Below are positions 3,612 to 26,020 of a DNA stretch of 64,000 nt, in pieces. The notes under the pieces were generated by a model. The model saw only the letters and a program-made list of their open reading frames with translations, had not been told where the DNA came from and searched no databases. This stretch comes from Cupriavidus basilensis (lineage in GTDB: Bacteria > Pseudomonadota > Gammaproteobacteria > Burkholderiales > Burkholderiaceae). The stretch is from contig NZ_CP062803.1 in NCBI RefSeq assembly GCF_008801925.2, positions 2,790,001-2,854,000 of the forward strand. The letters run 5' to 3'. The translations under genes and the position numbers were made by a program. Each line of letters opens with the position of its first letter. The stretch's first letter is position 1.

Positions 3612-4388
3612 TCACTTCAGATAGTCCCGCAGCCAGGCGCCGCACTCGCCCGCGTGCTGTGCCGGCCAGTGCACGGTAATGGTCGCATTGGGCTGGCGCA
3701 CTTCGATGCAGATATCCGTGAGCGGGCCCCTGTCCACGGCGGGCGCGGGCGAGAACAAGCGCGACCACCAGCCTGTGCCGCGACGGGGGCTGGCTTGTAT
3801 GGCGTGAGCCGGGATGGCGGCCGGGCCAGCGGGAATTCCCTCGATGGCGGAGGCGGGCGAGGCGGGCGAGGCGGCCTGCGCCTTCGCAACCGTTTGCGCT
3901 GCAGCGGGCGCAGCGGACGCCACCGCCGGCTCCGCCTCGGCAGGCGCCACCAACCGCGCCGACAGATTCGTGCCGAACTCCTCCCACATCCGGTCCGCCT
4001 TCGTCTTCATCACGCTCAAGCCGAACGTGCCAAGGCGGCCCAGCACGTCCACGTTGATCTTCATGCGCAGCTCGGTCTTGCCGTCGGGCTGCCCGGTCAG
4101 GAAGATCTCGCTGGACTGCTTGAGCGAGCTGGCCACGGAGGCGTCCTCGCCCGTGCCTTCGCTACGCAGGTAGTTGGGCGCGCGCATCTCCACGATGGTG
4201 GTCTTGATCTTGAAGCGCGCGCTGACAAAGGCAATCTTGACCTGGATGTGCGAGATGTACTCCACATCGCTGACCACCTCGATCGACTGCATGCCCGGCA
4301 CGCAGCCGCCCATCACATTGGGATCGAGCAGCAGTGCCCACACTTGCGCCGGCGCTGCGCCGACGATCAGGCTTTTTTCAATTTCCAC
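3612..4388 (-). CDS. CoxG-like SRPBCC-domain protein with C-terminal extension
   Basis: The N-terminal ~150 residues match the CoxG/SRPBCC fold (start VEIEKSLIVGAAPAQVW; core GGCVPGMQSIEV), a family found with molybdenum hydroxylases and thought to help membrane anchoring or maturation. A Pro/Ala-rich linker then leads to a C-terminal segment containing GWWSRLFSPA and a final ~45-residue module ending HAGECGAWLRDYLK; the family is usually nearer 150-200 residues, so this 258-residue form is long. The start is GTG and overlaps the end of the 2Fe-2S subunit gene by 11 bp, so the two are translationally coupled. It is the last enzyme-associated gene of operon A. Confidence 0.82.
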   Translation of the reverse strand: MEIEKSLIVGAAPAQVWALLLDPNVMGGCVPGMQSIEVVSDVEYISHIQVKIAFVSARFKIKTTIVEMRAPNYLRSEGTGEDASVASSLKQSSEIFLTGQPDGKTELRMKINVDVLGRLGTFGLSVMKTKADRMWEEFGTNLSARLVAPAEAEPAVASAAPAAAQTVAKAQAASPASPASAIEGIPAGPAAIPAHAIQASPRRGTGWWSRLFSPAPAVDRGPLTDICIEVRQPNATITVHWPAQHAGECGAWLRDYLK

Positions 4389-4854
4389 GCATCTTCTCCG
4401 CGGCGGACAGAATGGATTCGACGATGCCGACGTAACCGGTGCAGCGGCACAGGTTGCCGTTCAGGCCGGCGCGGACCTCCTCTTCTGTCGGGTTGGGGTT
4501 ATGCGCCAGCATGGCGCAGGAGGTCATCAGAAAACCGGGTGTGCAGTAGCCGCACTGCAGGCCACCGCACTCCATGAAACTTTGCTGCAGCGGGTGCAGT
4601 TCGCCGCCGGCGCCGAGGCCTTCGACGGTGGTCACGTCGCGCCCGCGTGCCTGCACGGCAAGCATCAGGCAGGACTTCATGACTTCGCCGTCCACCAGCA
4701 CGGAGCAGGCGCCGCAGATGCCGGTCTCGCAGCCACGCTTGGTGCCGGTCAGGTTGAGGTCGTCGCGCAGCAGGTCCGACAGCAGGCGCCGCGCGGGCAC
4801 TTCCACGCTGTGGTCTTCGCCGTTGACAGTGAGTTCGATATGGATCTTTTGCAT
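4378..4854 (-). CDS. Molybdenum hydroxylase small (2Fe-2S) subunit
   Basis: A 158-residue iron-sulfur subunit of the xanthine dehydrogenase family. All eight cluster cysteines are present: the plant-ferredoxin-type set in CETGICGACSVLVDGE plus the later Cys in KSCLML, and the second set in CGYCTPGF with NGNLCRCTGY. It passes electrons from the Mo site to FAD in the partner subunit. It is encoded nine bases after the FAD-subunit gene and overlaps the coxG-like gene. Length and domain order (ferredoxin fold, then four-helix fold) are standard. Confidence 0.95.
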   Translation of the reverse strand: MQKIHIELTVNGEDHSVEVPARRLLSDLLRDDLNLTGTKRGCETGICGACSVLVDGEVMKSCLMLAVQARGRDVTTVEGLGAGGELHPLQQSFMECGGLQCGYCTPGFLMTSCAMLAHNPNPTEEEVRAGLNGNLCRCTGYVGIVESILSAAEKMRGN

Positions 4855-4863
4855 GGGGAATCC

Positions 4864-5730
4864 TTAGTCCGCCGCCAGCCCGAATAGCGTGGCGATGCTT
4901 CGCCGCGCTACGGTCCGTACCATCTCGCGGCGATAGTCCGCGTTGCCGCGCATATCGGAAACGGGGTCGATGTCCGCGGCGACGATGTCCGCCGCCTCGG
5001 CGGCCACTTCGGGCGTGACGGCCTTGCCGGCCAGGAACGCCTCGGCACGCCGCAGCCGCGCCGGAATCGGCGTGGATGCGCCGACCGCAAGGCGCGCCTC
5101 GATGCACGTGGCGCCAGTCCGGCGAGCCAGCAGCGCGACGCTGGCCAGCGGCCGGTGCTCGGCAGCCGTGCGCAGGAAACGCGCGTAGTGGCCGAGCGCA
5201 TCCGGCGCCGGTGCGGGAATGCGGATCTCGGTCACGATCTCATCGGGCTCGAGCGCCGTCGTGTAGTAGTCGACCAGGAACGCCTCCATCTCCAGCACGC
5301 GCTCGCCGCTCCTGCCGGCGAGCACCACCTGCGCCCCCAGCGCCATCAGGCAACCCGGCGGATCGGTGGCGGGATCGGCATAGCAAAGGTTGCCGCCGAT
5401 CGTGCCCTGGTTGCGCACCTGCGGATTGGCCACGCGCCCTGCCATGCTGGCCAGCATGGGGTAATGCGCCTGCACCAGCTTTGAGCGCGCCACCTGCGCA
5501 TGCAAGGCCAGCGCGCCGATGCGCAAGCCGGTGCGCGAATCGAACTCGATCTTGCGCAGTGCATCGAGTTGGCCAAGCGATACCAGATGGGTGGGCGTGA
5601 GCATGCGCTGGCGCATGCCGAGCATCAGCGCGGTGCCGCCGGCAATCACCCTGCACTCGTCGCCCAGGTCGGCCAGCATGCGGCTGGCTTCCTGCACCGA
5701 GCCGGGCTCCAGAAATTCGAAATTACGCAT
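4864..5730 (-). CDS. Molybdenum hydroxylase medium (FAD-binding) subunit
   Basis: A 288-residue FAD subunit of a xanthine-dehydrogenase-family hydroxylase. The two FAD motifs are clear: AGGTALM near residue 33 and TIGGNLCYADPATDPP near residue 105. The frame is open further upstream to 5922, but the true start is the ATG at 5730 (MRNFEFLEPGS), where homology begins. This start overlaps the stop of the large-subunit gene in the 8-mer ATGCGTAA, which implies translational coupling. Confidence 0.95.
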   Translation of the reverse strand: MRNFEFLEPGSVQEASRMLADLGDECRVIAGGTALMLGMRQRMLTPTHLVSLGQLDALRKIEFDSRTGLRIGALALHAQVARSKLVQAHYPMLASMAGRVANPQVRNQGTIGGNLCYADPATDPPGCLMALGAQVVLAGRSGERVLEMEAFLVDYYTTALEPDEIVTEIRIPAPAPDALGHYARFLRTAAEHRPLASVALLARRTGATCIEARLAVGASTPIPARLRRAEAFLAGKAVTPEVAAEAADIVAADIDPVSDMRGNADYRREMVRTVARRSIATLFGLAAD

Positions 5731-8017
5731 GGCACGCCTCCTTTTCCTTGCGCTCGCGCAGCGCGGCCAGCACCTTCTCCGGCGTGATGGGCAGCGAAGC
5801 AATGCGCACGCCGATGGCGTCATAGACCGCATTGGCGATGGCGGCCGCGCCCGGCAGGATCGCGGTTTCGCTGGCGCCCTTGGCGCCGTAGGGCCCGTTG
5901 GGCTCAACCGACTCGACCACATCCGTGCGCAGCGCGGGCACAGCGTCAGCGGTCGGCATGGTGTAGTCGGCGAAGTTGCCGTTCAGGATGCGGCCATCCT
6001 CGACCTGCACGTGTTCATACAGCGTCCAGCCGATCGCCTGCACGGTGGCGCCATGCGTCTGGCCGTGCACGGCCAGCGGGTTGATGGCCTTGCCACAGTC
6101 GTCCGACACGAAGCTATCGATCAACGTGACCTGCCCGGTGGCCATGTCCACTTCCACTTCGACGGCCTGCGCCGCGAACGAGTAGGCCGGCGCAATGTTG
6201 CCGTAGTAGTTAGCGTCGTGCATCACGGTGGGCGCATCGTAGGTGGCGCGCACCATCAGGCCTTCGCCGCCATGGCGGAAGATATGCAGCCGTGCTATCT
6301 CGGCAAGCGTGGCGCGTTTGGTGTCGTCATTGCGGGCGCGGATCACGCCGTCGAGCAGTTCCAGTTCGTCCTGTGGCACGCCGAGCTTCTCTGCGGCCAC
6401 GGCCAGCAGTTTCTGCTTCGCCTCGCGCGCGGCCCGCATCACTGCGTTGCCGGAAATGATGGTGACGCGCGATGCCAGCGAGCCGAGGCAGAACGGCGCC
6501 ACATCGGTATCCGGCGCGCTCACGGTGACATGCGACAGCGCAATGCCCAGCTCCTGGGCGCAGATCTGGCTGAGCATGGTGTTGGCGCCCTGCCCCATGT
6601 CGCACTCGCTGGTGAGCAGCATGACGCGCCCGTCCTCGTTGACCTTGAGCACGATGGTGGAGCCGTCCCAGTTGCCCAGCGTGCGGTTGCCGCTGACGTG
6701 CATGGCGGCCGCAACGCCGAGCCCGCGCCGGCGCATGCCGGTTCGCCGCGAGGCATCGGCGCGGCGCGCATCCCACTGGATCGCTTCGCGCGCCTGCTCG
6801 AGGCATTCCACCAGGCCGCTGCTGCCGATCTTCCAGCCATGGACGCTGGTGTCCCCGGAGCGGATGGCATTGCGCTTGTGGATTTCGATGGGGTCCATGC
6901 CGAGCATTTCGGCCAGCATGGTGAGGTGGCTGTTCAGCGGAAACTGCATCTGCTGCCCGCCAAAGCCGCGGAACGCGCCGCGCGGCGGATTGTTGGTATA
7001 GGCGAGCACGGCGTTGGAGCGCACGTTCTCCAGGCGATGCATGTTGTCGCTGCGCATGGCGCTCACGTGCATCACGTCGCCAGCCAGGCCCGCGTAGGCG
7101 CCGCACTCGGCCACGATATTGACGTCCTTGGCGACGATCATCCCTTGCGCGTCCAGGCCCATCTTCAGCCAGACCCGCGCCGGCACGCTGGAGCGCGCGC
7201 CGAGGAAATCCTCGAGCCGGTTGTTGACGAGGCGCACCGGGCGGTCGAGCCGCGTTGCCAGCAAGGCCGCGATCAGGCTGTTGCTCTCCTCCACGATCTT
7301 GGCGCCAAAGCCGCCGCCGGTGACCGCCTGGATCACGCGGATGGTGGACACCGGCCGGTCCAGCGCTTCAGCCAGGCGCGCGCGCGCCAGGAACACGGAC
7401 TGCGTCGAGGCCCAGACCGTGAGCCGGCCATTGCCATCCTGGGCGGCCACGGTGGCCATCGGCTCCAGGTAGCCGGGATACTGCGAATGCATGTCGTACG
7501 TGGCCTCGTAGACCACTGCGGCGCGCGCGAAGCCGGCTTCGACGTCGCCGCGCTCGATATGCATCTCATGGGCGATATTGCGCGTGCCCGGGTGCAGCTC
7601 CGCTGCGCCATCGGCAAGCGCTGCATCGGGGCTGAAGATGGCGGGCAGTTCTTCGTACTCCACGCGGATCAGGTCCAGTGCATCGCGCGCGGTTTCCTCA
7701 TCCACCGCGACCACCGCGGCAACCTCCTCACCGACGTGGCGGACCACGCCAGCGGCAAGAATGCGCTGCTCCTTGCGATGCGTGCCCCACAGCCGCGACG
7801 GCGTATCCTCGCCGGTCAGGACCAGCTTGACGCCCCGCAGCGCACGCGCCGCCGCGGTGTCGATGCGAACGATGCGGGCATGCGGATACGGGCTGCGCAG
7901 CACCTTGGCATGCAGCATGCCGGCCTGCTTGATGTCGCCGGCATACACGGCCCTGCCCATCACCTTCTCCCGCGCCGTCACTTGCGGCGTGGCGCTTCCC
8001 ACTGTCGACGTGCTCAT
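5723..8017 (-). CDS. Molybdenum hydroxylase large (molybdopterin-binding) subunit
   Basis: A 764-residue catalytic subunit. It has the Moco motifs GGGFGAK (near residue 236), PRGAFRGFGG (near residue 342) and, near the C-terminus, GAKGASE, whose Glu matches the catalytic base of the family. The AFRGFGG form is that of xanthine dehydrogenase-like and aromatic or N-heteroaromatic hydroxylases; the AYxCSFR loop of true CO dehydrogenase is absent, so 'carbon monoxide dehydrogenase' would be wrong. A near-perfect ribosome site (AGGAGG, 5 bases before ATG) fixes the start. The gene follows the bug receptor after 72 bp. The substrate is unknown; ring hydroxylation next to nitrogen, or of an aryl-CoA, is typical of the family. 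Confidence 0.93.
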   Translation of the reverse strand: MSTSTVGSATPQVTAREKVMGRAVYAGDIKQAGMLHAKVLRSPYPHARIVRIDTAAARALRGVKLVLTGEDTPSRLWGTHRKEQRILAAGVVRHVGEEVAAVVAVDEETARDALDLIRVEYEELPAIFSPDAALADGAAELHPGTRNIAHEMHIERGDVEAGFARAAVVYEATYDMHSQYPGYLEPMATVAAQDGNGRLTVWASTQSVFLARARLAEALDRPVSTIRVIQAVTGGGFGAKIVEESNSLIAALLATRLDRPVRLVNNRLEDFLGARSSVPARVWLKMGLDAQGMIVAKDVNIVAECGAYAGLAGDVMHVSAMRSDNMHRLENVRSNAVLAYTNNPPRGAFRGFGGQQMQFPLNSHLTMLAEMLGMDPIEIHKRNAIRSGDTSVHGWKIGSSGLVECLEQAREAIQWDARRADASRRTGMRRRGLGVAAAMHVSGNRTLGNWDGSTIVLKVNEDGRVMLLTSECDMGQGANTMLSQICAQELGIALSHVTVSAPDTDVAPFCLGSLASRVTIISGNAVMRAAREAKQKLLAVAAEKLGVPQDELELLDGVIRARNDDTKRATLAEIARLHIFRHGGEGLMVRATYDAPTVMHDANYYGNIAPAYSFAAQAVEVEVDMATGQVTLIDSFVSDDCGKAINPLAVHGQTHGATVQAIGWTLYEHVQVEDGRILNGNFADYTMPTADAVPALRTDVVESVEPNGPYGAKGASETAILPGAAAIANAVYDAIGVRIASLPITPEKVLAALRERKEKEACHA

Positions 8018-8089: not shown

Positions 8090-9070
8090 TCACTCGGCGG
8101 TAATGCCGAAATCCTTGATGACCTTGCCCAGCCGCTCGTAGTCGGAAGCATTGATCTTTTCCAGCACGGCAGGCGCGCCGCCCACCGGCACCGCGCCGAA
8201 GGTGGCCATCTTCTCGGCGATGTCCGGCATCTTGACGATCTCGTTGAGCTGCTCGTTGAGCAGCTTCACCACCTCGGCCGGCGTGCCCTTGGGCGCCATG
8301 ACGCCGTGCCATGCGCCTACGATGACGTCCTTGTAGCCAAGCTCGGACAGCGTCGGCACATTGGGCAGCAGCGCAGAGCGCTTCGGATCGGTCACGGCCA
8401 GCGCAAGCAGCTTGCCCGTGTTGATGTACTGGGCCACCGGCCCCAGCGTCACGTAGGCGAAGTTGACGTGGCCCGCGACGACATCGTTGACGGCGGGCGC
8501 AACGCCCCGGTACGGCACATGCTGGATCTTCACGCCAGCGGCGCGGTTCAGCCACTCGCCGGCGATATGCATGGGCGAGCCCGCGCCAGGGGTGGCATAC
8601 GTCAGCGGCTTGCCGGCCTTCGCGGCGGCCACCATTTCCTGCACGGTCTTGATGCCGGCGCCCGGATACGCCACCAGCAGCACGGTCTGCGTGCCGGTCT
8701 GGATGACCGGGGTGAAGCCATGCAGCGCGTCGTAGCTGGAGCTGGCGGGGAGCTTGAGCACCATCGGCGCCGTCGTGAACGGATTGGGCGTAAACAGCAG
8801 CGTGTAGCCGTCGGCCGGCGCGCGGCCGACCATGGCGTTGCCGACCACGCCGCCAGCGCCCGGCTTGTTCTCCACGATCACCGGCTGCTTGAGGCGCATC
8901 GACAGCTTCTCCGCGTACATGCGCGCCATGGAGTCCGTGTCGCCGCCCGGCGGATAGGCGACCACGATCGTGACCGGTTTGGCGGGATAGCCAAGCGCAA
9001 AGGCGCTGCCGCCTCCCAGGGCAATCGCGGCGAGCGCTGTGGCAAGGACGTGTCGGCGGGCAAGGTTCAT
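8090..9070 (-). CDS. Bug/TctC-family periplasmic substrate-binding protein 1
   Basis: A 326-residue receptor of the tripartite tricarboxylate transporter family. It has an N-terminal signal peptide (MNLARRHVLATALAAIALGG, cleaved near AFA-LG) and the family hallmarks YPAKPVTIVVAYPPGGDTD, YATPGAGSPMHIAGE and NVPTLSELGYKDV. These proteins capture organic acids in the periplasm. No TctA/TctB membrane partner is in the window, so it is an orphan, as is usual in Burkholderiales. It is the first gene of operon A, with a CAGGAG ribosome site, and shares length and motifs with the second receptor at 25040-26020. Confidence 0.95.
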   Translation of the reverse strand: MNLARRHVLATALAAIALGGGSAFALGYPAKPVTIVVAYPPGGDTDSMARMYAEKLSMRLKQPVIVENKPGAGGVVGNAMVGRAPADGYTLLFTPNPFTTAPMVLKLPASSSYDALHGFTPVIQTGTQTVLLVAYPGAGIKTVQEMVAAAKAGKPLTYATPGAGSPMHIAGEWLNRAAGVKIQHVPYRGVAPAVNDVVAGHVNFAYVTLGPVAQYINTGKLLALAVTDPKRSALLPNVPTLSELGYKDVIVGAWHGVMAPKGTPAEVVKLLNEQLNEIVKMPDIAEKMATFGAVPVGGAPAVLEKINASDYERLGKVIKDFGITAE

Positions 9071-9163: not shown

Positions 9164-9179
9164 GTTTTATTAGCAAAAC
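9164..9179 (-). promoter_or_regulatory. Operator-like palindrome upstream of operon A
   Basis: GTTTTATTAGCAAAAC, the inverted repeat GTTTT-N6-AAAAC. It lies 94 bp upstream of the bug start codon, just after a possible minus-strand -10 (ACTAAT). It matches sites at 22293, 23378 and 23716. The binder is inferred to be one of the IclR proteins. Confidence 0.6.
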
Positions 9180-9387: not shown

Positions 9388-9978
9388 ATGGATCCGATGA
9401 AGCGCGCAGCCGGAACGACAACCGACACCGGCGACAAGGCAGTGCCCCCGAAAACCGACTGCCCCTGGGCGCAACTGGACGAGCAAGGCAACGGGCTCGA
9501 TGTCGACGACTTCCTGACGACGATGCTCAGCCAGTTGGTCAACGCCTTGCGCCGCACCGTGACGCTGCCCTACGCCGAGCAGTTCGCGCTAACGGTGCCC
9601 GAATGGCGCCTGCTGGCCCTGCTGGCGCACGCGCGGCAGTTGCCTTTTGCGGAACTGGTGCTGCAATCCACATCGGACAAGGCGCTGGTGAGCCGAACGC
9701 TGCGGCTGCTCGAAGGCCGCGGGCTGGTGAAGCTGGATGCCGAGGGCAACACCCCGCGCAAGAAGCTGATCTGCAGCATCACGCCGGAAGGCCTGGCGCT
9801 GCATGAGCAAGTGATGCCGCTGGCCAGGAAGGGCCAGGCGGAGGTGATCCGGCTGCTTGAGCCGGAAGAGCGCCGAGCGATGTACCAGGCGCTGAGGAAG
9901 CTGCACGGCCTGTGCGTGACGCCCGGGCGCGGCGACGCCGGCGGGGGTGGGGGTGGGGGCGGGGGCTGGGGCGAATAA
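9388..9978 (+). CDS. MarR-family transcriptional regulator with poly-Gly tail
   Basis: A 196-residue winged-HTH regulator. The DNA-binding core is LTVPEWRLLALLAHARQLPFAEL, then TSDKALVSRTLRLLEGRGLVKL (recognition helix) and a wing with NTPRKKLICSITPEG. MarR proteins usually respond to small aromatic ligands. It is divergent from operon A, so it may control that operon or itself. The last ~14 residues are almost all glycine, encoded by G5 runs, ending WGE; this tail lies outside the MarR fold and may vary in length between strains. The ribosome site before ATG 9388 is weak, and ATG 9397 is an alternative. Confidence 0.9.
   Translation: MDPMKRAAGTTTDTGDKAVPPKTDCPWAQLDEQGNGLDVDDFLTTMLSQLVNALRRTVTLPYAEQFALTVPEWRLLALLAHARQLPFAELVLQSTSDKALVSRTLRLLEGRGLVKLDAEGNTPRKKLICSITPEGLALHEQVMPLARKGQAEVIRLLEPEERRAMYQALRKLHGLCVTPGRGDAGGGGGGGGGWGE
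9943..9971 (+). repeat. G-tract array (G-quadruplex motif) at the 3' end of marR
   Basis: Four runs of five G and one of four G are separated by single bases (T, T, C) and CT. This is an ideal intramolecular G-quadruplex pattern, on the coding strand, ending eight bases before the stop codon is complete. Such runs are also prone to replication slippage. Confidence 0.8.
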
Positions 9979-10047: not shown

Positions 10048-11511
10048 TCAGGCCTCGAGTTGCTCGAGCACCTTGCCCTTGGTCTCGATGCCAAGGAAGT
10101 GGATGGTCAGCGCCGCCACGAACGGCACCGTCGCCAGCGCGTAGAAAGCGGTGCTGAGATTGCCCGAGCCGATCGTGCTGGCCACCAGCGTCGGGGCGAA
10201 GATCGCCGCCAGCTTCAGCCACGCGCCCCCAAAGCCGCAGCCCATGGCGCGGATGCTGGTGGGATACAGCTCAGGCGTGTACACGTAGGCCGTGATAAAG
10301 CCACTGGCCAGGAAACCAAGCGAGAGCGCGCAGAGCCCGGCCACGACGTACACCGACGCCGCGTGGAACACGCCGGCCAGCGCCAGCGATATCGCGCACA
10401 GGATGAACGAGACGTTGATCACCGGCTTGCGGCCCACCTTGTCGACAATCATCGCGCACACCAGCGAGCCGATCACCCCGAGCACCGATGCGCCCGCGGC
10501 CAGGTTCAGGGCCAGCTGCAGCGGTGCGTGATACACCGTCTTGTAGATCGTCGGCAACCAGGTCGACAGCCCATACTGGATAAAGCCGCAGGTCGCCCAC
10601 AGCATCCACACCGCCAGCGTGCGGCCGATATAGGCCTTGCTCAGCAGATCCCGGACACGCCGGCGGGGGTGCTTGCCGGTCATCGCGTCGTACGCGGATA
10701 CGTCGCCCAGCGGCGCCAGCGGCCCCTTGGCGCGCGACTCGAACGTCGCGAGCGCGCGGTCGGCCTCGGCCAGGCGGCCCTTCTCCGCCAGCCAGCGCGG
10801 CGATTCGGGAATGGCCCGGCGCAGGATGAAGAACAGGATGACCGGAGCGCCGCCGATGAAGTACATCACGGTCCAGCCGAAGCGCGGCACCAGCCACGCG
10901 CCGACTGCATTGGAGATCAGCAGGCCAATCGGGAACACCACCTCGTACAGCAGCACGAAGCGCCCGCGCCCGTGGGCACGCGTCACTTCGTTGATATAAG
11001 TGGCGGCCACCGGCAGCTCACCGCCCAGGCCCAGGCCCTGCACGATGCGCAGCAAGGCAAAGATTTCGAACGAGGGCGCGAAACCGCAGGCGATGCTCAT
11101 CAGCCCGATGATGCCCGCGCTCCAGCCAATCGAGTTAAGGCGGCCAAAGCGCTCGGCCAGCGCGGGAAACAGCAGCGCGCCGATCAGTTGCCCGACCGAC
11201 GGCGCCGCGATCAGAAAGCCGATCTGACCCGGCGTGAGCGACCACATCGAGATCAGCAGCGGCAGCGTGGCGGCGATGGCGATCACGTCAAAGCCATCGA
11301 AGAACGTGGCCAGGCCGATCAGCAGCCGCGCCCTGACATGCATGCCATTGCTGGGCAGGCGCTCGATGCGGGCGATGATCTCGCCCCGGGTGGTTGCCAC
11401 GGGGGCGTCAGTGGCGCGCTCGCCACCGCCTGCCGTGCTGGTGCTGGATGGGGTCGCCACACCCTCGGCGTTCGCGTTGGCGAACGGGGCCTCTTGTCTC
11501 TGGATCAACAC
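10048..11511 (-). CDS. MFS transporter, aromatic acid:H+ symporter (AAHS)-like
   Basis: A 487-residue inner-membrane importer with twelve predicted spans. AAHS-type signs are the Asp-containing first span FFDGFDVIAIAATLPLL, the loop motif ALAERFGRLNSIG between spans 2 and 3, and the C-terminal half repeat VDKVGRKPVIN. The start is GTG, giving a ~60-residue Ser/Thr/Ala-rich cytoplasmic leader, longer than usual; a later start is possible. It is the last gene of operon B, 120 bp after the reductase gene, and would bring the pathway substrate into the cell. The exact substrate is unknown. Confidence 0.88.
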   Translation of the reverse strand: MLIQRQEAPFANANAEGVATPSSTSTAGGGERATDAPVATTRGEIIARIERLPSNGMHVRARLLIGLATFFDGFDVIAIAATLPLLISMWSLTPGQIGFLIAAPSVGQLIGALLFPALAERFGRLNSIGWSAGIIGLMSIACGFAPSFEIFALLRIVQGLGLGGELPVAATYINEVTRAHGRGRFVLLYEVVFPIGLLISNAVGAWLVPRFGWTVMYFIGGAPVILFFILRRAIPESPRWLAEKGRLAEADRALATFESRAKGPLAPLGDVSAYDAMTGKHPRRRVRDLLSKAYIGRTLAVWMLWATCGFIQYGLSTWLPTIYKTVYHAPLQLALNLAAGASVLGVIGSLVCAMIVDKVGRKPVINVSFILCAISLALAGVFHAASVYVVAGLCALSLGFLASGFITAYVYTPELYPTSIRAMGCGFGGAWLKLAAIFAPTLVASTIGSGNLSTAFYALATVPFVAALTIHFLGIETKGKVLEQLEA

Positions 11512-18562: not shown

Positions 18563-18567
18563 CGTCC

Positions 18568-19457: not shown

Positions 19458-19994
19458 TCAGCGCTTGACCTTGGTGAGCGGATGCTCGGGCGGGTACGTT
19501 GGCGTGATCGGCTTCTTGGCGCCGAGCATCACGCACATCAGCGCGTCTTCCTCGCCGATGTTGATTTCCTCGCGGTACACGCCGGGGGGCACCGAGACCA
19601 GGTCGCGGTCGGTCAGGATGGTTTCGAAGCGCTCGCCGTCCTTTTCCAGGATCAGCTTGATCTTGCCGCGCATGACGAAGAAGACCTCTTCCACGTCCGT
19701 GTGCAGGTGCGACGGGCCTTCGTGGCCGGCCGGGATGATCATGGTCGAGAACGTGAAGTTCTCGGACGGCACGGTATTGGTGTCGGTGGCCACGCCGGTG
19801 CCGCCGGTGCCGAGGTAACGCATCTGCGCACGGCGGTACTTGGGATCGTAGTCAGCCTGGAACTTCAGCGCGTCCCAGTCGTAGCGGCGGGTGGAGAAGC
19901 GCGCGACACGGCTCTCCATCCACTGGTCGAAGGAAGCGCCAGACGGCTGCTCCCAGGAACGCTTGATGTTGTCTTGTTGGGAAAGATCGCTCAT
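19458..19994 (-). CDS. Cupin-domain protein
   Basis: A 178-residue single-domain cupin. The metal motif HLHTDVEEVFFVMRGKIKL gives the HxH...E set, and the second motif lies in PPGVYREEINIGEEDALMCVML. The N-terminal ~90 residues (RRYDWDALKFQADYDPKYRRAQMRY) are helical and not cupin-like. Single-domain cupins in catabolic operons may be dioxygenases, isomerases or sensors; nothing here decides between them. It is followed by the second IclR gene in operon B. Ribosome site AAGGAA lies seven bases before ATG. Confidence 0.88.
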   Translation of the reverse strand: MSDLSQQDNIKRSWEQPSGASFDQWMESRVARFSTRRYDWDALKFQADYDPKYRRAQMRYLGTGGTGVATDTNTVPSENFTFSTMIIPAGHEGPSHLHTDVEEVFFVMRGKIKLILEKDGERFETILTDRDLVSVPPGVYREEINIGEEDALMCVMLGAKKPITPTYPPEHPLTKVKR

Positions 19995-20010: not shown

Positions 20011-20781
20011 TCAGTGCATGACGAAGCCGCCGTTGACGGCCAGCGTCTGGCCCGTCACGAAGCGGGCCAGGTCGGAAAGGGCGAACAGCACGGCCCCGGA
20101 GACATCCTCGGGTAGCTGCTCGCGGGAAATCGCGCGTTGCTCGCGATAGAGGTCGCGCCTCTTCTGGGGCACGTATTCGGTTGCCTCCACCAGGGTCAGC
20201 CCCGGTGCTATGGCATTGACGGTGATCTGGTCGTCGCCCAGCTCGCGCGCCAGCGAGCGGGTCATGCCGATGATGGCGCTCTTGCTGGCCACGTATGCCA
20301 GCAGGTTGGGCGCGCCCCACAGCGGCGTGTCGGACGCCAGGTTGACGATGGCGCCGCGGCCCGAGGCGCGCAGCGCCGGCAGGCAGGCGGTGGTCATCAG
20401 CCAGGTACCGCGCACGTTGATATTCATCACGCGGTCCCAGGTGGCGATGTCGATGGCGCTGGCGTCGCGCCCGCCGGAGTCGGTCACCGCGGCGTTGTTG
20501 ACCAGGCCGTCGAGGCCGCCCAGCCCGGCCGCCGCCGCGTTGGCGCAGGCCGTCACCGATTCGGGGTTGCCCAGGTCGAGCACGAACGGCAGCGCCTTCA
20601 GCCCGCGGGCCTGCAGCGCAGCGGCTCCCTCGTGCAGGCGGTCCGCCAGGATGTCCGCCATGGCGACGGCGGCGCCGGCTTCGGCAATCGCGGTGGCAAA
20701 GGCCAGGCCAAGCCCGCGCGCGGCGCCGGTCACCAGCACGCGCCGGCCAGCCAGCAGGTTATGGCGATCGATCTCAGGCAT
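20011..20781 (-). CDS. SDR-family oxidoreductase (canonical)
   Basis: A 256-residue classical SDR with TGAARGLG at the cofactor site, NNAAVTDSGG, the catalytic Ser in VNLASDTPLWG, and YVASK as the YxxxK pair. It may oxidise a diol or alcohol made by the Rieske oxygenase. The ATG at 20781 overlaps the Rieske stop by 8 bp (ATGCCTGA on the minus strand), so the two are probably translated together, which supports a linked role. The longer TTG start at 20799 is unlikely. Confidence 0.92.
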   Translation of the reverse strand: MPEIDRHNLLAGRRVLVTGAARGLGLAFATAIAEAGAAVAMADILADRLHEGAAALQARGLKALPFVLDLGNPESVTACANAAAAGLGGLDGLVNNAAVTDSGGRDASAIDIATWDRVMNINVRGTWLMTTACLPALRASGRGAIVNLASDTPLWGAPNLLAYVASKSAIIGMTRSLARELGDDQITVNAIAPGLTLVEATEYVPQKRRDLYREQRAISREQLPEDVSGAVLFALSDLARFVTGQTLAVNGGFVMH

Positions 20782-21829
20782 GGCCGGCCACCCCGCCAAC
20801 CGGCTTCAACATGGCAACGGGCTCGTCAGCGACTTCCTGGTCGGCACGGCGGCGCAGCAGGCGGCGCACGCGGGTGATGCCGACATCGTGCTGGTACAGC
20901 GTTTCATGCTCGCGCGCGTTCGGCGCCATCATTTCGAGCACCACGCGGTCTTGCTCCAGCACGTCCCAGTGCAGGCCCTCCAGGCGGTTGCGGTACAGGA
21001 AGCGCCAGACATCGCGCTCCCAACCCTGCACGTGACGGGTGCGCCAGAAGAACACCATGCAGTGCTCCTCATCCACCGGCGTAGCGATGCCAACGATGCC
21101 GAACGGGCCGCCAGGACCCACCTTGGCGCGATAGGGGATGGCCAGGCGCAACCACATCGTGCCGGTTTCGCCGAACTCCACCCAATCGAAGTTCACGCCG
21201 CGCTGGCCGGTCTTCTCGAACACCAGGCCGGTGTCAGTCTCGCGCACGGCCATCACAGCCTGCTTTTCACCGCTGGCCATCGAGTGCGACACCGCATGCA
21301 GGTAGGCGCCGTGCATCGGGTCCATGACGTTGTCGATGGCGTAGCGGTAGTTGCAATCCCAATGCGCCACGCACAGGAAATTGGTGTGCTCGTCGCTTTC
21401 CAGCTCTTCCGGCAGGCGCAGCGCATCGGCTTGCGCTGGAGCGCGCTCACCGAACCACAGGAAGATGGCGCCGGCCTTTTCCTGCACGGGGTAGCTGCGC
21501 ACGCAGGTCTTGCCTTCGAGCGGGCAGCTGTCCACGGCCGGCACGCTCTTGACCTGGCCATCGCCACCCACTTCCACGCCGTGGTACCAGCAGGCCACGC
21601 GGTCGCCAAGGTTCCAGCCCATCGACAGGCGCGCGCCGCGGTGCGGGCAGCGATCTTCCAGCGCGTGCACCTGGCCTTCGCCATCGCGCCACAGCACGAT
21701 GTTCTGGCCCAGGCGCGTGATGCCGACCGGTGCATGCGTGACCGCCCATGCGGCCGATACCGGATACCAATAGTTGTGCAGGCCGGTGTTCAGGCGCGCC
21801 TCAGCACGCGCTTGCTTGTTCGATTCCAT
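20774..21829 (-). CDS. Rieske non-haem iron oxygenase, alpha subunit (VanA/phthalate dioxygenase-like)
   Basis: A 351-residue ring-hydroxylating or demethylating oxygenase. The Rieske cluster ligands are C61-x-H63 in CPHRGARLSMGW and C80-x2-H83 in CWYHG. The catalytic domain has NVMDPMHGAYLHAVSH, which supplies the bridging Asp and the two iron-binding His. No beta subunit is encoded, matching the single-subunit VanA type, whose partner is a one-chain reductase, here the gene at 11632-12588. It could hydroxylate the ring or remove an O- or N-methyl group. It overlaps the canonical SDR gene downstream by 8 bp. Confidence 0.93.
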   Translation of the reverse strand: MESNKQARAEARLNTGLHNYWYPVSAAWAVTHAPVGITRLGQNIVLWRDGEGQVHALEDRCPHRGARLSMGWNLGDRVACWYHGVEVGGDGQVKSVPAVDSCPLEGKTCVRSYPVQEKAGAIFLWFGERAPAQADALRLPEELESDEHTNFLCVAHWDCNYRYAIDNVMDPMHGAYLHAVSHSMASGEKQAVMAVRETDTGLVFEKTGQRGVNFDWVEFGETGTMWLRLAIPYRAKVGPGGPFGIVGIATPVDEEHCMVFFWRTRHVQGWERDVWRFLYRNRLEGLHWDVLEQDRVVLEMMAPNAREHETLYQHDVGITRVRRLLRRRADQEVADEPVAMLKPVGGVAGHA

Positions 21830-21940: not shown

Positions 21941-22246
21941 TCAGGCGCCCAGGCGACGCATTTCGGCGAGGAAACGCGCCTCGGTCCAGGCCTGGCCATC
22001 CGCGCCCAGCAAGCCCGCCTGGTTGAACGAACGCACGATATCTTCCGGGCTTTTCGCACCGGCTTCGAAGGCGGCCTCCAGCGCATCGCCCAGCGCGTCT
22101 TCGTAGGCGGTGGGCATGGCGGCGCGGGTCTGCCACACGATGTTGGCGACCTTGCCGGGCTGCTCGATGTGGCCCTTGCCGGCGACATTGTTCGGAGCCG
22201 GACGCTCCCAGGGCGCCAGATTCGGGTTGTATGCGAGGTTTTCCAT
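21941..22246 (-). CDS. Small recombinase-like helix-turn-helix protein
   Basis: A 101-residue protein resembling those annotated as 'recombinase-like HTH domain' proteins. The N-terminus is polar and extended (MENLAYNPNLAPWERP), and a helical part follows that contains EDIVRSFNQAGLLGADGQAWTEARFLAEMRRLG, which fits an HTH with a recombinase-like motif. ATG 22246 is chosen because AAAGGAG stands seven bases upstream; the longer frame lacks this. It leads operon B, 111 bp before the Rieske gene. There is no recombinase catalytic domain. It may be a regulator or an accessory to the oxygenase; the role is unknown. Confidence 0.75.
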   Translation of the reverse strand: MENLAYNPNLAPWERPAPNNVAGKGHIEQPGKVANIVWQTRAAMPTAYEDALGDALEAAFEAGAKSPEDIVRSFNQAGLLGADGQAWTEARFLAEMRRLGA

Positions 22247-22292: not shown

Positions 22293-22308
22293 GTTTCATC
22301 TATAAAAC
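22293..22308 (-). promoter_or_regulatory. Operator-like palindrome upstream of operon B
   Basis: GTTTCATCTATAAAAC on the plus strand (GTTTY-N6-AAAAC), 46 bp before the HTH-gene start. A second, wider CGTTTT...AAAACG symmetry spans 22287-22309. AT-rich TTAAAT/AATATT, possible -10 sequence, lies just upstream on the minus strand, so the site would cover the transcription start. Confidence 0.62.
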
Positions 22309-22476: not shown

Positions 22477-23364
22477 CTAAGCTGCGGCAAGCCCGTGGCG
22501 AATCCAGCGCGCAACCCGGCTGGCCTGCTCCACGTAGCAGGCATGCCCGGCATCCGGGATCAGCTCGAACGGCAACGCAAAGCGCTCCGCCAGGGCCGCA
22601 CACCCGGGCGGCGGCGTCACGACATCCAGCGCGCCGCAGCCGACCTGCACCCTGACGCCCTGCCCCCGGCGCCCGAGGTAGTCGTCAATGGCATCGCCGC
22701 ACAGCATCGCCACCGCCTGCCGGTAACCATCCGGATCCAGCCGGCGCATATTCCAGCGCACCCAGGCTTGCACATCGGCGCCTGCCGCGGCGCTCAGCAG
22801 GCGGCCGGGCCCCCGCTCGGCCAGGCCTTCCACGCCCACCGCCGCGAGCGCTTCGAGCCGCTGGCGCGCCACGTCCCTTGCCTTGTCCTCTTTGCCGGGG
22901 CCGCCGTATCCCTGCGCCGGGCTCAGCAGCAGCAACTTCGCGGGCAGCAGCGCCGGGCTAGCCTCGGCCACATAGGCGGCCGCCATCAGCGCGCCGAGCG
23001 AGTGCCCCACGATCACATCGGGCCGTACGTCCAGGGCACGCATCAGGTCCTGCAGGCGCAGCGCGTAATCGGCAGCCTTGGGCGCCGCGACGGGCAGGGC
23101 CTGCGAATTGCCATAGCCGGGCGCGTCCCACGCAATCACGCGCGCGTGCGCCGCCAGCAAGCTGGCGCACGACAGCCAGGAGGCCGCGCCGGAACTGATG
23201 CCATGCAGCAGCACCACCACAGGCCCGTGGCTGCCGCCGCACCGGTAAGCGAGCGGTGCGCCGTCGCGGCCGGCAGCTATGCGCCGCTCACCGAAGCCGC
23301 TATCGAGTGCACGGAGCAACGCTTCATCCGGCTGGGGTAGCTGAGGCGCGTTAATTTGTTCCAT
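22477..23364 (-). CDS. Alpha/beta-fold hydrolase (meta-cleavage-product hydrolase-like)
   Basis: A protein of about 295 residues with the alpha/beta hydrolase fold: oxyanion-hole motif HGISSGAASW, nucleophile elbow VGHSLGALMAA (Ser), an acid near GCGALDVVTPP, and His in DAGHACYVEQ. In pathways with extradiol dioxygenases such enzymes hydrolyse the ring-cleavage product, which fits this neighbourhood. ATG 23364 is chosen; ATG 23376 and TTG 23385 lie within or against the operator. It is separately transcribed from operon B, which starts beyond its 3' end. Confidence 0.88.
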   Translation of the reverse strand: MEQINAPQLPQPDEALLRALDSGFGERRIAAGRDGAPLAYRCGGSHGPVVVLLHGISSGAASWLSCASLLAAHARVIAWDAPGYGNSQALPVAAPKAADYALRLQDLMRALDVRPDVIVGHSLGALMAAAYVAEASPALLPAKLLLLSPAQGYGGPGKEDKARDVARQRLEALAAVGVEGLAERGPGRLLSAAAGADVQAWVRWNMRRLDPDGYRQAVAMLCGDAIDDYLGRRGQGVRVQVGCGALDVVTPPPGCAALAERFALPFELIPDAGHACYVEQASRVARWIRHGLAAA

Positions 23365-23377
23365 ATATGAAACCATA

Positions 23378-23392
23378 GTTTGCAAATAAAAC
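23378..23392 (-). promoter_or_regulatory. Operator-like palindrome upstream of the hydrolase gene
   Basis: GTTTGCAAATAAAAC on the plus strand, one base shorter than the other sites. A TATATT element, plausible as -10, lies seven bases upstream on the minus strand (23399-23404), so the palindrome would cover the transcription start. Confidence 0.55.
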
Positions 23393-23430
23393 TTAAGAAA
23401 TATAGACCGCCTGAATCTGGAAATTGATCC

Positions 23431-23440: not shown

Positions 23441-23644
23441 CCTGCAAAAAAATTTCGCCGGGTCCGGCGCTCCGCCGGCGTTGAAGCGTCCGCAAATCCC
23501 CTTTTTGGCGCAACGGCCTTGCATACCAATTCGGGCGCGGCTCCCCGGCCTGGCGGCAGCGCGCCGCCCTCCTCCCTGTTGCGCAGCATGGTGCGCAACA
23601 GCGCCGTGCTGGTGCAGGCCACTCGTCGCTTCTCCGCATCACTA

Positions 23645-23654
23645 GGGATTACCC
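23645..23654. promoter_or_regulatory. Upstream box GGGATTACCC of the porin operon
   Basis: A relative of the boxes at 22369 and 23431. It lies 61 bp upstream of the porin operator-like site, almost the same distance (60 bp) as at operon B. Confidence 0.4.
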
Positions 23655-23715
23655 ACCCATGCGTTTCCCGAAATGACCAGCTATATTTTGCTCGTTGTTT
23701 CTTATGTAATCTGAT

Positions 23716-23731
23716 GTTTTACCTATAAAAC
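23716..23731 (+). promoter_or_regulatory. Operator-like palindrome upstream of the porin gene
   Basis: GTTTTACCTATAAAAC, extended by one base each side to a perfect TGTTTTA/TAAAACA inverted repeat with a 4-bp centre. It is the most symmetric of the set and lies 121 bp before the porin start, just after TATGTAAT, a possible -10. Confidence 0.62.
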
Positions 23732-23852
23732 AAAAGAAGTTGGAAAGTGCTCATTACGGTATGCACAGACCCAGCTCGACGATGGCCTGACGAAGCGCTG
23801 CAACGCCTACCGACCGACACGGCGGAAAAGGAAAAGGAAGAGGAAACGAACG

Positions 23853-24950
23853 ATGAAACTTGGACGGATTGCACTGGCTGCCCTTGCAGCCGCAGTACCC
23901 ATGCTGGCCTCGGCCCAATCGACGGTGACGCTGTATGGCGTCGTCGATACCGGTATCGAGTATGTGAACAATGTTGGCGCGGCGAAGGACGGCGTGGCCC
24001 GCGTGAACACCCTGACGGGTACGGTGCCGTCGCGCTGGGGCATCCGCGGCACGGAGGATCTTGGTGGCGGGCTCAAGAGCCTGTTTGTGCTCGAATCCGG
24101 ATTCGCCCCCGATTCCGGCACCTCCAACCAGGGTGCGCGCCTGTTCGGCCGGCAAGCATTGGTCGGACTCTCCGGCCCCTGGGGCCAGGTCGCCCTGGGC
24201 CGCCAGTACACCATGCTGTTCTGGGCCACGCTGGACCCGGACATCCTCGGCCCCAACGTGTACGGCTCGGGCTCGCTCGACAGCTATCTGCCGAACGCGC
24301 GCGCCGACAATGCGGTTTCCTACAAGGGCACGTTCGGCGGCTTCACGGTGGGTGCCACCTATAGCTTTGGCCGCGACACGGTGAACGCGGGCCCGAGCCC
24401 GGCCGGCACCAACTGCGCGGGCGAAAATGCGGCCGACAGCAAGCAATGCCGCGAATGGTCGGCCTTGCTCCAGTACGACAACAAATGGTGGGGCGTGGCC
24501 GCGGCCTATGACTCGCTGCGTGGCGGGCCTGGCGCGTTTGGCGGCCTGACCAGGAGCAACCAGACGGACGACCGGCTCTCGCTCAATGGCTACGTGCTGC
24601 TGTCCAAGACCAAGATGGGCCTGGGGGTGATCCGCCGCGACAATGACGGCAGCCCCACGCCGCGCAGCGACCTCTGGTATGCGGGCCTGGCATATGACAT
24701 CACGCCAGCCTTCACGCTGGCCGGCCAGGTCTATTACCTCAAGTACCACAACAGCGACAACAAGGCGATGCTGTACGCGTTGCGTGGTACCTACGCCTTC
24801 TCCAAGCGCACCTCCGTGTACGCCACGGCTGGCTTCATCGACAACGGCGGCCAACTCGCCCTGTCGGTCAGCGGTGCCCAGACGGGTTCCAACCCGAAGC
24901 CCGGTGGCAACCAGCTGGGCACGATGATCGGCATCAAGCACACGTTCTAA
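23853..24950 (+). CDS. Gram-negative outer-membrane porin (Burkholderiales type)
   Basis: A 365-residue trimeric-type porin. The signal peptide ends ASA-QSTVTLYG, the standard mature N-terminus of Burkholderiales porins. Family motifs are LYGVVDTGIEYV, SRWGIRGTEDLGGG, RQALVGLSGPWGQVALGRQ (constriction region), and the C-terminal strand ends GIKHTF, with Phe last, as needed for outer-membrane assembly. It is followed by a bug receptor gene after 89 bp on the same strand. Together they would form the outer-membrane and periplasmic entry route of the pathway. GGAAGAGG lies upstream of ATG. Confidence 0.95.
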   Translation: MKLGRIALAALAAAVPMLASAQSTVTLYGVVDTGIEYVNNVGAAKDGVARVNTLTGTVPSRWGIRGTEDLGGGLKSLFVLESGFAPDSGTSNQGARLFGRQALVGLSGPWGQVALGRQYTMLFWATLDPDILGPNVYGSGSLDSYLPNARADNAVSYKGTFGGFTVGATYSFGRDTVNAGPSPAGTNCAGENAADSKQCREWSALLQYDNKWWGVAAAYDSLRGGPGAFGGLTRSNQTDDRLSLNGYVLLSKTKMGLGVIRRDNDGSPTPRSDLWYAGLAYDITPAFTLAGQVYYLKYHNSDNKAMLYALRGTYAFSKRTSVYATAGFIDNGGQLALSVSGAQTGSNPKPGGNQLGTMIGIKHTF

Positions 24951-25039
24951 GCGCCGGCGCGTCGCAGCGCGGCACTGGCGGGCATGCGGCGCGCAACGCG
25001 CTGCATGTCCGCACGAAGTCAATCTAGAGGCGTTTCCCC

Positions 25040-26020
25040 ATGAAGCTCGTAACTCGCATTCTGTTTGCTGCCATCGCGGCCACAACTGCCATGATGGCAG
25101 GCGGCGCCGGGGCGCAGGCCTACCCCACCAAACCCATCACGCTGGTCGTTGCCTACCCGGCCGGCGGCGACACCGACGTGCTGGCCCGCCTGCTGGCCGA
25201 AAAACTCTCGGGGCGCCTGCGCCAGTCCGTGGTGGTCGAGAACCGCACCGGCGCGGCCGGCACGATCGGCAGCGCATACGTCGCCAAATCCGCCGCCGAT
25301 GGCTACACCTTGCTGGTCGCGCCCAACACCGTTGCCATCGCGCCGCTGGTGCTCAAGAACGGCACGGGCGCCAGCTACGACGTGCGCGGCGACTTCACCC
25401 CGGTGGCCCAGCTTGGCGTGCAGTCGCTGTTCGTGGTGGTCAACAAAGGCACGGGCATCACCAAGCTGCCCGAACTGGTCGCGCGCGCCAAGGCGGGTAC
25501 GGTGCAGACCTACGCCACGCCCGGCAACGGATCGCCCATGCACATCCTTGGCGAGCTGTTCAACAAGGCCGCGGGCGTGAACATCTCACAGGTGCCGTAT
25601 CGCGGCACCGCGCCGGCGGTGGTCGACGTGCTCGGCGGGCAAGTGCCGATGACGTACTCCACGCTGGGCGCGGTGGCGCAGTACATCGGGACGGGCGCCA
25701 TCGTGCCGCTGGCCGTCGCGGACATGAAGCGCTCGCCGTTCGCGCCGAATGTGCCGACGCTCGCGGAGCTGGGCTACAAGGATGTGGAGGTGGGCGCGTG
25801 GCAAGCGCTGCTGGCACCCAAGGGACTGCCGCCGGAGTTGGTGAAAACGCTGAATACGCACGTCAACGACATCCTGAAAATGCCTGACGTGGTGGCACGC
25901 ATGGCAACCATCGCCATCACGCCGGTCGGCGGCGAGCCCGCTACGCTAAGCAAGCTGATCGCATCGGACTCGACACGCTACGCCAAGATCGTCAAGGAGT
26001 TCGGCATCCAGGCCGATTGA
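25040..26020 (+). CDS. Bug/TctC-family periplasmic substrate-binding protein 2
   Basis: A 326-residue receptor, the same length as the one at 8090-9070. The signal peptide is cleaved near GAQA-YP. Family motifs are YPTKPITLVVAYPAGGDTD, YATPGNGSPMHILGE, and NVPTLAELGYKDV. It is co-oriented with the porin and shares its promoter region. Like the first receptor it has no TctA/TctB partner here, so it may feed a transporter encoded elsewhere or act in sensing. Confidence 0.95.
   Translation: MKLVTRILFAAIAATTAMMAGGAGAQAYPTKPITLVVAYPAGGDTDVLARLLAEKLSGRLRQSVVVENRTGAAGTIGSAYVAKSAADGYTLLVAPNTVAIAPLVLKNGTGASYDVRGDFTPVAQLGVQSLFVVVNKGTGITKLPELVARAKAGTVQTYATPGNGSPMHILGELFNKAAGVNISQVPYRGTAPAVVDVLGGQVPMTYSTLGAVAQYIGTGAIVPLAVADMKRSPFAPNVPTLAELGYKDVEVGAWQALLAPKGLPPELVKTLNTHVNDILKMPDVVARMATIAITPVGGEPATLSKLIASDSTRYAKIVKEFGIQAD

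Follow-up and report, generated by a model that had tools for sequence, protein, structure and literature searches.

Which compound is broken down by the products of a catabolic gene island that resembles no textbook set? The question is raised by a stretch of the Cupriavidus basilensis genome (NZ_CP062803.1, 2,790,001–2,854,000, in contig C1 of an 8.94-Mb genome; this whole stretch of 64,000 nt is called the window hereafter, and coordinates are window positions). An initial annotation had recognized there a molybdenum (Mo) hydroxylase, a VanA-type Rieske oxygenase with its reductase, two short-chain dehydrogenases/reductases (SDR1 and SDR2), a VOC extradiol dioxygenase, an alpha/beta hydrolase, an aldehyde dehydrogenase (ALDH), a thiamine diphosphate (ThDP) enzyme, an aspartate dehydrogenase (AspDH)-like protein, a cupin, an MFS importer, a porin and two Bug receptors. 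It had suggested degradation of a (hetero)aromatic compound, perhaps nitrogen-containing, by a set distinct from those for benzoate, protocatechuate, gentisate, phthalate or homogentisate. The latter point appears to stand, and the former is supported by the AspDH gene in the operon and the Mo hydroxylase in the putative regulon. With fair confidence, we propose that the island serves to break down kynurenate (4-hydroxyquinoline-2-carboxylate) and, through a linked entry step, quinaldate, and that it forms one IclR-controlled regulon.

The classical quinoline pathway leads from kynurenate through its 7,8-dihydrodiol and 7,8-dihydroxykynurenate to the oxopropenyl-, formylethyl- and carboxyethyl-4,6-dihydroxypicolinates. 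We infer the substrate of the island, and each single step, from the fit to this pathway of AspDH, of a Mo hydroxylase that shares its putative regulon and of the sequence Rieske oxygenase, SDR, extradiol dioxygenase, SDR, ThDP enzyme and ALDH. The Rieske oxygenase, with the reductase as its candidate electron transfer protein, would convert kynurenate to the 7,8-cis-dihydrodiol. SDR1, a candidate dihydrodiol dehydrogenase encoded next to the oxygenase, would produce 7,8-dihydroxykynurenate, and the VOC protein, with its predicted extradiol 2-His-1-Glu site, would cleave C8–C8a to give 5-(3-carboxy-3-oxopropenyl)-4,6-dihydroxypicolinate. SDR2 may then reduce the side-chain C=C. For the 2-oxo-acid decarboxylation and aldehyde oxidation that follow, the window encodes a ThDP enzyme (PRK07064), predicted to yield the formylethyl compound, and ALDH, which would oxidize it to 5-(2-carboxyethyl)-4,6-dihydroxypicolinate. 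Next, oxidative opening of the pyridine ring by the cupin, between C4 and C5, would give an N-acyl enamine, which the alpha/beta hydrolase would split into 2-oxoglutarate and iminosuccinate, and AspDH would convert the latter to L-aspartate. Overall, kynurenate would yield CO2, 2-oxoglutarate and L-aspartate, the acid being imported by the porin, the Bug receptors and the MFS protein. The computed atom balance holds in all eight proposed steps. The roles of the cupin, the hydrolase, SDR2 and the Mo hydroxylase are the weakest assignments.

The window AspDH scores 503.8 bits against NF009827 (cut-off 226) and thus belongs to the family of EC 1.4.1.21. His221, which we take to be its catalytic histidine, is conserved in 87 loci. 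The family includes assayed enzymes. According to the accessible text of PMC5554190, primers for the Ralstonia eutropha enzyme (ReuAspDH) encode MSMLHVSM...HAVSI and those for the Klebsiella pneumoniae enzyme (KpnAspDH) MKKVMLIGY...CRELA. The former termini were found in AspDHs of two Cupriavidus core clusters (L012, L016), the C-terminus also in three others (L006, L013, L044), and the latter termini are those of the AspDH in the Klebsiella aerogenes cluster. The window enzyme, a Cupriavidus relative of ReuAspDH, ends in HAMSI, not HAVSI. The C-terminal peptide of the Delftia enzyme (DelAspDH) is that of locus L121, the N-terminal peptide being close and not identical; the classical kynurenate-degrading strain, ATCC 11299, is now assigned to Delftia. 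Purified KpnAspDH and DelAspDH catalyzed amination at 26.5 and 32.8 U/mg, respectively, in the available part of PMC5554190, where these enzymes are treated as biotechnology tools and their gene neighbourhood is not discussed. The presence among catabolic genes of an AspDH whose family includes assayed members suggests iminosuccinate, and thus a substrate with an N-C(COOH)-C-C(=O) unit, as in a 4-oxygenated pyridine-2-carboxylate.

To see how widely the set is kept together, AspDH was used as a query with one genome per species, which gave at least 569 relatives, and the best 80 loci were kept. Of these 80, 77 contain the full core of nine enzymes (Rieske oxygenase, SDR1, SDR2, cupin, hydrolase, ThDP enzyme, AspDH, ALDH and VOC), mainly in Cupriavidus, Ralstonia, Herbaspirillum and Pseudomonas, which confirms that the annotated genes are real. 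Among the three incomplete loci, L001 and L043 run into contig ends, and the third, in Pigmentiphaga (L076), is split over three places. Because the genomes are related, these and all following conservation counts are not independent, nor are the 98 loci cited below 98 genomes. In a further sample of 399 Burkholderiales genomes, the ThDP gene exceeded the cut-off in 15, of which 12 also had the cupin (E<=1e-40); among the other 384, the cupin was present in one, at a contig end. The three ThDP genes without a cupin (G042, G281, G195; 689–711 bits) had no other core gene beside them and were set aside as another subfamily. A related ThDP subfamily (665–711 bits to PRK07064) was seen beside Bug receptor genes, with no other core genes in the four places inspected (L112, L113, L114, L117).

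Gene order was compared in 90 loci, the 80 above and ten more distant ones fetched later. The commonest order, SDR1-cupin-hydrolase-IclR-SDR2-ThDP-AspDH-ALDH-VOC-Rieske-reductase, was found in 50 loci and differs from that of the window only in the positions of the hydrolase and Rieske genes. The order seen in the window itself was found in 10 loci, or in 17 if the place of the best IclR match is ignored. The comparison, which the initial annotation had suggested as a check, thus showed the order to be widespread and turned up no characterized copy and no whole-order match to a characterized pathway. Two clusters are split. In Pigmentiphaga, cupin-hydrolase-IclR-AspDH (L076) lies 1.65 Mb from IclR-SDR2-ThDP-ALDH-VOC-Rieske-RidA-reductase (L140), and in L121 the same four-gene set is separated from the other core genes by about 2.6 kb. 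This is as expected if cupin, hydrolase and AspDH act sequentially after the carboxyethyl compound. RidA-type deaminase genes, present in 41/98 loci, fit an imine or enamine intermediate.

C. basilensis GW210010_S58, whose AspDH is 96% identical to that of the window, carries the island on two contigs (protein identity 73–99%). When proteins were searched in plasmid-collection records, 29 records contained VOC relatives. The complete set of nine can be read in stretches from Caballeronia and Acinetobacter baumannii, and also in K. aerogenes, where ALDH is annotated as two pieces. The Klebsiella and Acinetobacter records with the cluster (L143, L147, L144) are labelled plasmids, some being chromosome-sized, and the Klebsiella site lies between speB and tkt.

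Pfam and NCBIfam profile searches of the window proteins recovered every family that the initial annotation had listed, and catalytic residues were intact wherever they were checked. Across 88 loci, the Rieske ligands C61, H63, C80 and H83 and the iron ligands H173, H178 and D294 are intact, and so are His181, His240 and Glu291 of VOC (346-aa ORF numbering), with one exception for Glu291. An over-long VOC ORF (L122) used as a query gave 2791 matches, and among the 120 listed only generic names appeared. The hydrolase has the catalytic residues Ser129, Asp254 and His281. Its structure model (mean pLDDT 95) has an esterase/PcaD-like fold, which does not settle the reaction, and its sequence weakly matches N-acetylaminomethylene-succinate hydrolase (3kxp, 30.8 bits). 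The cupin weakly matches quercetinase QueD (31 bits) and has invariant His96, His98 and Glu102. The electron donor of the Rieske enzyme seems to be swapped in some loci (L120, L123, L124, L143–L147): a Pyr_redox_2-type reductase occurs in 9/98 loci and a Rieske ferredoxin in 9/98, seven having both, and in L120 and L123 the operon itself includes a reductase of the Pyr_redox_2/Reductase_C type.

Gene spacing and operators suggest three transcription units. The main operon (minus strand, 22246 to 10048, gaps of −26 to 120 bases) reads HTH_62, Rieske, SDR1, cupin, IclR2, SDR2, ThDP, AspDH, ALDH, VOC, reductase, MFS. The hydrolase gene diverges from porin-Bug2, and the third unit (minus strand, 9070 to 2606) reads Bug1-CoxL-CoxM-CoxS-CoxG-IclR1. 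In the first 30 kb there are three copies of a GTTTT-N2-14-AAAAC motif, one preceding each unit. A 16-bp pattern built from these sites and allowing one mismatch has three matches in the 64 kb, with 0.04 expected, an expectation computed after the fact; a plainer form also matches at 39578, outside the island. Upstream regions of orthologues scored at least 9/10 in 23 of 31 cases for the main operon, 16 of 19 for the porin and two of three for Bug1. The controls gave 0/93 (ALDH), 0/27 (MFS), 60/4000 (random windows) and 1/93 (SDR1), the single SDR1 match being at a far position and caused by slicing at a locus end.

A strict form, GTTTYRYNNRYRAAAC, has 127 sites in 65/98 loci and its reversed control none (2.0 Mb); some of these sites have no mapped gene start behind them and a few lie inside genes. 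In Pseudomonas, sites stand at about 1500–1660 of the loci, for instance 81 bp before an ORF at 1684 in L062. The C. basilensis genome has five sites, three of them within the island, and one control match. Among the matches listed, 31 of 34 genomes or records behind operator-bearing loci have sites (29 of them two to five) and eight have control matches. There was no enrichment in A. baumannii (7 versus 6 control matches), and one core-bearing genome (G164) had no site among the matches listed. In Pigmentiphaga, one of the two other sites precedes by 62 bp an SDR1 orthologue (70% identity), which was found through the operator and is absent from the two other parts of the cluster. The three units sharing the operator are probably one regulon. 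IclR1 and IclR2, which are 84.6% identical, are the putative binders of these sites. A fourth copy in the same genome (C2:2681771, about 7772 of L153) precedes a Bug receptor gene by about 50 bp; by eye, SDR-, acyl-CoA dehydrogenase- and CoA ligase-like genes are nearby.

Mo hydroxylases typically act on N-heteroaromatics, and biochemical work has described one that converts quinaldate to kynurenate. The window enzyme is of the xanthine oxidase type, with 2Fe-2S, FAD and MoCo domain subunits all present by Pfam. The nearest solved relative of CoxL is 4-hydroxybenzoyl-CoA reductase (1rm6, 461 bits), and quinoline 2-oxidoreductase (1t3q) follows at 295 bits. Identity with 4-hydroxybenzoyl-CoA reductase was rejected on the scores of CoxL (641.9 versus 994.6), CoxM (121.5 versus 404.6) and CoxS (176.2 versus 257.8 bits). 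The enzyme is a linked but separate module, not part of the core. A CoxL of at least 80% identity is found in 10 of 37 core-bearing genomes, all Cupriavidus, and one of 68% in Pigmentiphaga; three genomes, one labelled Ralstonia, have homologues of only about 42%. The remaining 23, which include the searched Herbaspirillum and Pseudomonas and five Ralstonia-like genomes, have no match at E<=1e-100. This distribution is what one would expect if the Mo hydroxylase operon were a mere neighbour, functionally unrelated to the core, a view compatible with kynurenate degradation. We consider it unlikely, since both units share the operator, the two IclR proteins are 84.6% identical and the operon adjoins the MFS/MarR end of the core in several Cupriavidus genomes. 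The operator precedes Bug1-CoxLMSG in the window and in five other loci (L007, L011, L156, L158, L159), and stands directly before IclR1 in five Cupriavidus loci (L009, L010, L012, L030, L041). That the module feeds quinaldate into the core, by hydroxylation at C4 to kynurenate, is a tentative suggestion that we hold to be somewhat less than an even bet.

Four loci (L009, L012, L017, L030) carry a CoxS-like gene of 39–44% identity, and L157, on the same contig as L030, encodes a different, TAT-signal Mo hydroxylase with no CoxM-like gene. Two different kinds of Mo hydroxylase in the same regulon slot might mean that the substrate of the core is a monocyclic N-heteroaromatic or one fused in another way (pyridine, indole or aminoaromatic), iminosuccinate arising by another route; AspDH, which implies a C4 amino-diacid unit, would suit such a substrate too. 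We judge this improbable. A ThDP decarboxylase and an ALDH after extradiol cleavage would be unusual there, where splitting by a hydrolase or an aldolase gives pyruvate directly, and we know of no monocyclic pathway with this gene list.

The same enzyme logic would take a different benzo-fused 4-pyridone-2-carboxylate, for example xanthurenate (8-hydroxykynurenate) or a kynurenate with substituents, to the same iminosuccinate end, with kynurenate as a side substrate. An FAD monooxygenase gene, present in 34/98 loci and directly after VOC in the 12 positions shown, encodes a salicylate/3-hydroxybenzoate-hydroxylase-like protein (e.g. L025 13232–14530, L122 4117–5379) that could hydroxylate xanthurenate at C7. 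However, there is no match to it in the window or in the AspDH-selected Cupriavidus loci, one Cupriavidus genome (L156) having a different PF01494 gene about 2 kb beyond IclR1, and only a benzo ring that lacks a hydroxyl group calls for a Rieske dioxygenase with a dihydrodiol dehydrogenase. We therefore give xanthurenate-type main substrates a low probability; as a second entry substrate, a xanthurenate-like compound would account for the extra monooxygenase genes.

It is very improbable that the core degrades an N-free methoxylated or polycyclic aromatic, with the Rieske enzyme as an O-demethylase and AspDH in general nitrogen metabolism: the VanA_C domain, a dicamba O-demethylase as best solved relative and three of ten distant loci in which AspDH was not seen speak for it, but AspDH is in all 77 complete loci, accompanies cupin and hydrolase in both split clusters, and RidA genes are frequent.

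Several observations weigh against kynurenate as the substrate, the kinship of the Rieske enzyme to dicamba O-demethylase among them. To our knowledge, AspDH is the sole enzyme of the set to have been assayed, none having been assayed on kynurenate. Neither the FAD monooxygenase nor the RidA genes, which co-occur in 31 loci, are needed by the route. The roles of SDR1 and SDR2 could be exchanged. The cupin has an invariant Arg141 at the place of the third histidine that we take to be the ligand in quercetinase- and Dke1-type cupins, its model has a mean pLDDT of 68 and the structure search gave generic results; its ring-opening role was kept at lowered confidence. In the fetched stretches of the ten distant loci, AspDH was not seen in L116, L118 and L120 (L116 and L118 being cut by contig ends), nor SDR2 and ALDH in L118 and L119. 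The K. pneumoniae record lists eight core enzymes, AspDH not among them, and no intact AspDH was found there by script. A fragmentary third split (G131), in which the cupin gene adjoins that of SDR1 where the contig ends (L141), shows no clean division into upper and lower halves. The incomplete distant loci and the G131 case lowered our confidence both in kynurenate degradation and in the boldest claim made below, and very slightly raised that in two of the rival readings. ReuAspDH itself was weak, with about 1.1–1.2 U/mg in crude extract with NADPH and control-level activity with NADH (accessible text of PMC5554190).

Linkage to tryptophan catabolism was also sought. With the C. basilensis proteins as queries, no KynA or KynU was linked in 158 fetched loci (KynB and aminotransferases were not searched), and the KynA gene of the same genome has no operator. 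Tryptophan 2,3-dioxygenase is missing from nine of 28 core-positive genomes; it is present in 10 of 16 genomes behind named core loci. In the order sample it occurs in nine of 12 core-positive genomes (C. basilensis included) versus two of 19 others (Fisher p 0.0005), a comparison of little weight, as the 19 are mostly next-best ThDP matches and thus an unfair control, with one match below the cut-off counted as absent.

How does the island relate to known systems? The quinoline pathway of pseudomonads (Taniuchi and Hayaishi) is reportedly represented by EC 1.14.99.2, 1.3.1.18 and 1.13.11.10, without genes. Each of its steps down to 5-(2-carboxyethyl)-4,6-dihydroxypicolinate has a matching family in the core, and 2-oxoglutarate and a C4 amino acid would fit its glutamate and alanine products. 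The ring opening by cupin, hydrolase and AspDH is proposed here and is not known to be part of that pathway. Quinaldate 4-oxidoreductase, a Mo hydroxylase, is of the same enzyme class as CoxLMS, and its product would feed the core. Names of the old intermediates appear in the parts available of PMC11364965, PMC12007202 and PMC8778235, and the accessible text of PMC5610271 cites Taniuchi and Hayaishi (1963) for the formation of 7,8-dihydroxykynurenic acid.

The lum system for lumichrome/riboflavin in Nocardioides simplex likewise combines a xanthine-oxidase-type enzyme with Rieske, extradiol and ThDP chemistry on an N-heterocycle, but it starts with a P450 and a hydrolytic ring opening and uses a Rieske alpha/beta pair with ferredoxin and a two-protein ThDP decarboxylase; the word 'aspartate' has no match in the available text (PMC12746152). 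Membership in lum was rejected, as P450, amidases and Rieske alpha/beta were absent from the Pfam results for the genes scanned. The Kyn cluster of Acinetobacter and Pseudomonas also uses a tryptophan-derived host metabolite, but there KynU cleaves kynurenine to anthranilate and the kynurenate ring is left unattacked, as far as the accessible part of PMC9162365 goes. No gene assignment for kynurenate ring degradation was found among the titles and abstracts listed from the literature searched, which mostly excluded subscription journals. We class the island as a gene set for an orphan pathway already known, to which a newly proposed lower half is added. The boldest form of this claim, to which we give even chances, is that it holds the missing genes of the 60-year-old orphan quinoline pathway, including an undescribed cupin/hydrolase/AspDH lower half that takes the ring nitrogen to aspartate.

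The features are collected in Table 1. The list of families in the initial annotation was correct; to it are added two IclR genes, a MarR gene and an HTH_62 gene. The island had been taken to begin at 3612 and is extended here to the IclR1 gene (2606–3427), where it starts. The start of the ThDP gene is corrected from 17946 to a probable one near 17766; with this start it overlaps the SDR2 gene by 8. The HTH_62 gene ('recombinase-like helix-turn-helix') was located through homology to a Klebsiella gene; it adjoins the Rieske gene and has homologues in 59/98 loci, including Klebsiella and Caballeronia. Beyond the island, Old-yellow-enzyme-like (26105–27271), heptosyltransferase-like (27463–28461) and isochorismatase-like (28662–29477, minus strand) genes follow, which look unrelated, with no operator match there.

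Table 1. Features of the island, in window coordinates, with proposed functions and the matches behind them.
Feature	Position	Strand	Basis
IclR1, PcaR/PobR-type IclR regulator, end of Mo hydroxylase operon	2606..3427	-	Pfam IclR_C 123.8 bits
CoxG-like protein, Mo hydroxylase operon	3612..4388	-	PF06240 67 bits
Mo hydroxylase 2Fe-2S subunit (CoxS type)	4378..4854	-	Fer2_2 and Fer2
Mo hydroxylase FAD subunit (CoxM type)	4864..5730	-	FAD_binding_5 171 bits; probable start MRNFEFLEP
Mo hydroxylase catalytic subunit (CoxL type); proposed quinaldate 4-hydroxylase	5723..8017	-	MoCoBD_1/2
Bug1 periplasmic receptor, first gene of Mo hydroxylase operon	8090..9070	-	TctC 227 bits
Palindromic operator GTTTTATTAGCAAAAC, upstream of Bug1-CoxLMSG	9164..9179		also upstream of Bug1 orthologues
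MarR-family regulator	9388..9978	+	PF01047 27.5 bits
MFS importer, aromatic acid/H+ symport-like	10048..11511	-	MFS_1 143 bits; TIGR00895 215.7 bits, below cut-off 418.6
Reductase of the Rieske oxygenase (NAD-binding domain and plant-type ferredoxin)	11632..12588	-	Fer2 and NAD_binding_1
VOC extradiol dioxygenase; proposed 7,8-dihydroxykynurenate 8,8a-dioxygenase	12691..13680	-	PF00903 57 bits; probable start MNTILGIDE
ALDH; proposed 5-(2-formylethyl)-4,6-dihydroxypicolinate dehydrogenase	13732..15204	-	PF00171 564 bits
L-aspartate dehydrogenase; proposed substrate iminosuccinate from pyridine ring	15226..16032	-	NF009827 503.8 bits, cut-off 226
ThDP enzyme, PRK07064; proposed 2-oxo-acid decarboxylase	16045..17766	-	NF005470 927 bits, cut-off 495; probable start MRNEQQ
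SDR2 (PRK07062); proposed oxopropenyl C=C reductase, weak assignment	17759..18571	-	NF005468 451 bits, cut-off 266
IclR2, regulator within main operon	18568..19398	-	IclR_C 124 bits
Cupin; proposed pyridine-ring-opening 1,3-dicarbonyl dioxygenase	19458..19994	-	Cupin_2 43 bits
SDR1; proposed kynurenate-7,8-dihydrodiol dehydrogenase	20011..20781	-	adh_short_C2 190 bits; probable start MPEIDRHN
Rieske oxygenase (VanA_C); proposed kynurenate 7,8-dioxygenase	20774..21829	-	PF00355 77 bits, PF19112 55 bits
HTH_62 small protein, 101 aa from MENLAYN (110 aa if start 22273)	21941..22246	-	PF20552 89.8 bits
Palindromic operator upstream of main operon	22293..22308		pattern match
Alpha/beta hydrolase; proposed N-acyl-enamine hydrolase	22477..23385	-	Abhydrolase_6 71 bits
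Palindromic operator between hydrolase and porin genes	23716..23731		pattern match
Outer-membrane porin	23853..24950	+	Porin_4 191 bits
Bug2 periplasmic receptor	25040..26020	+	TctC 191 bits

If kynurenate is indeed the substrate, genes would be at hand for a classical branch of tryptophan breakdown, and the generically named PRK07064 and PRK07062 would receive functions. It would also explain why these bacteria have aspartate dehydrogenases, and bacterial AspDH would gain a physiological role. Kynurenic acid interacts with host receptors such as GPR35 and AHR (accessible text of PMC5610271), and its removal by microbes could then be foreseen from their genomes. Some host-associated bacteria, as suggested by the Klebsiella and Acinetobacter records, may consume this host signalling metabolite, and the core genes would mark consumers of kynurenic acid among bacteria of soil, plants and hosts.

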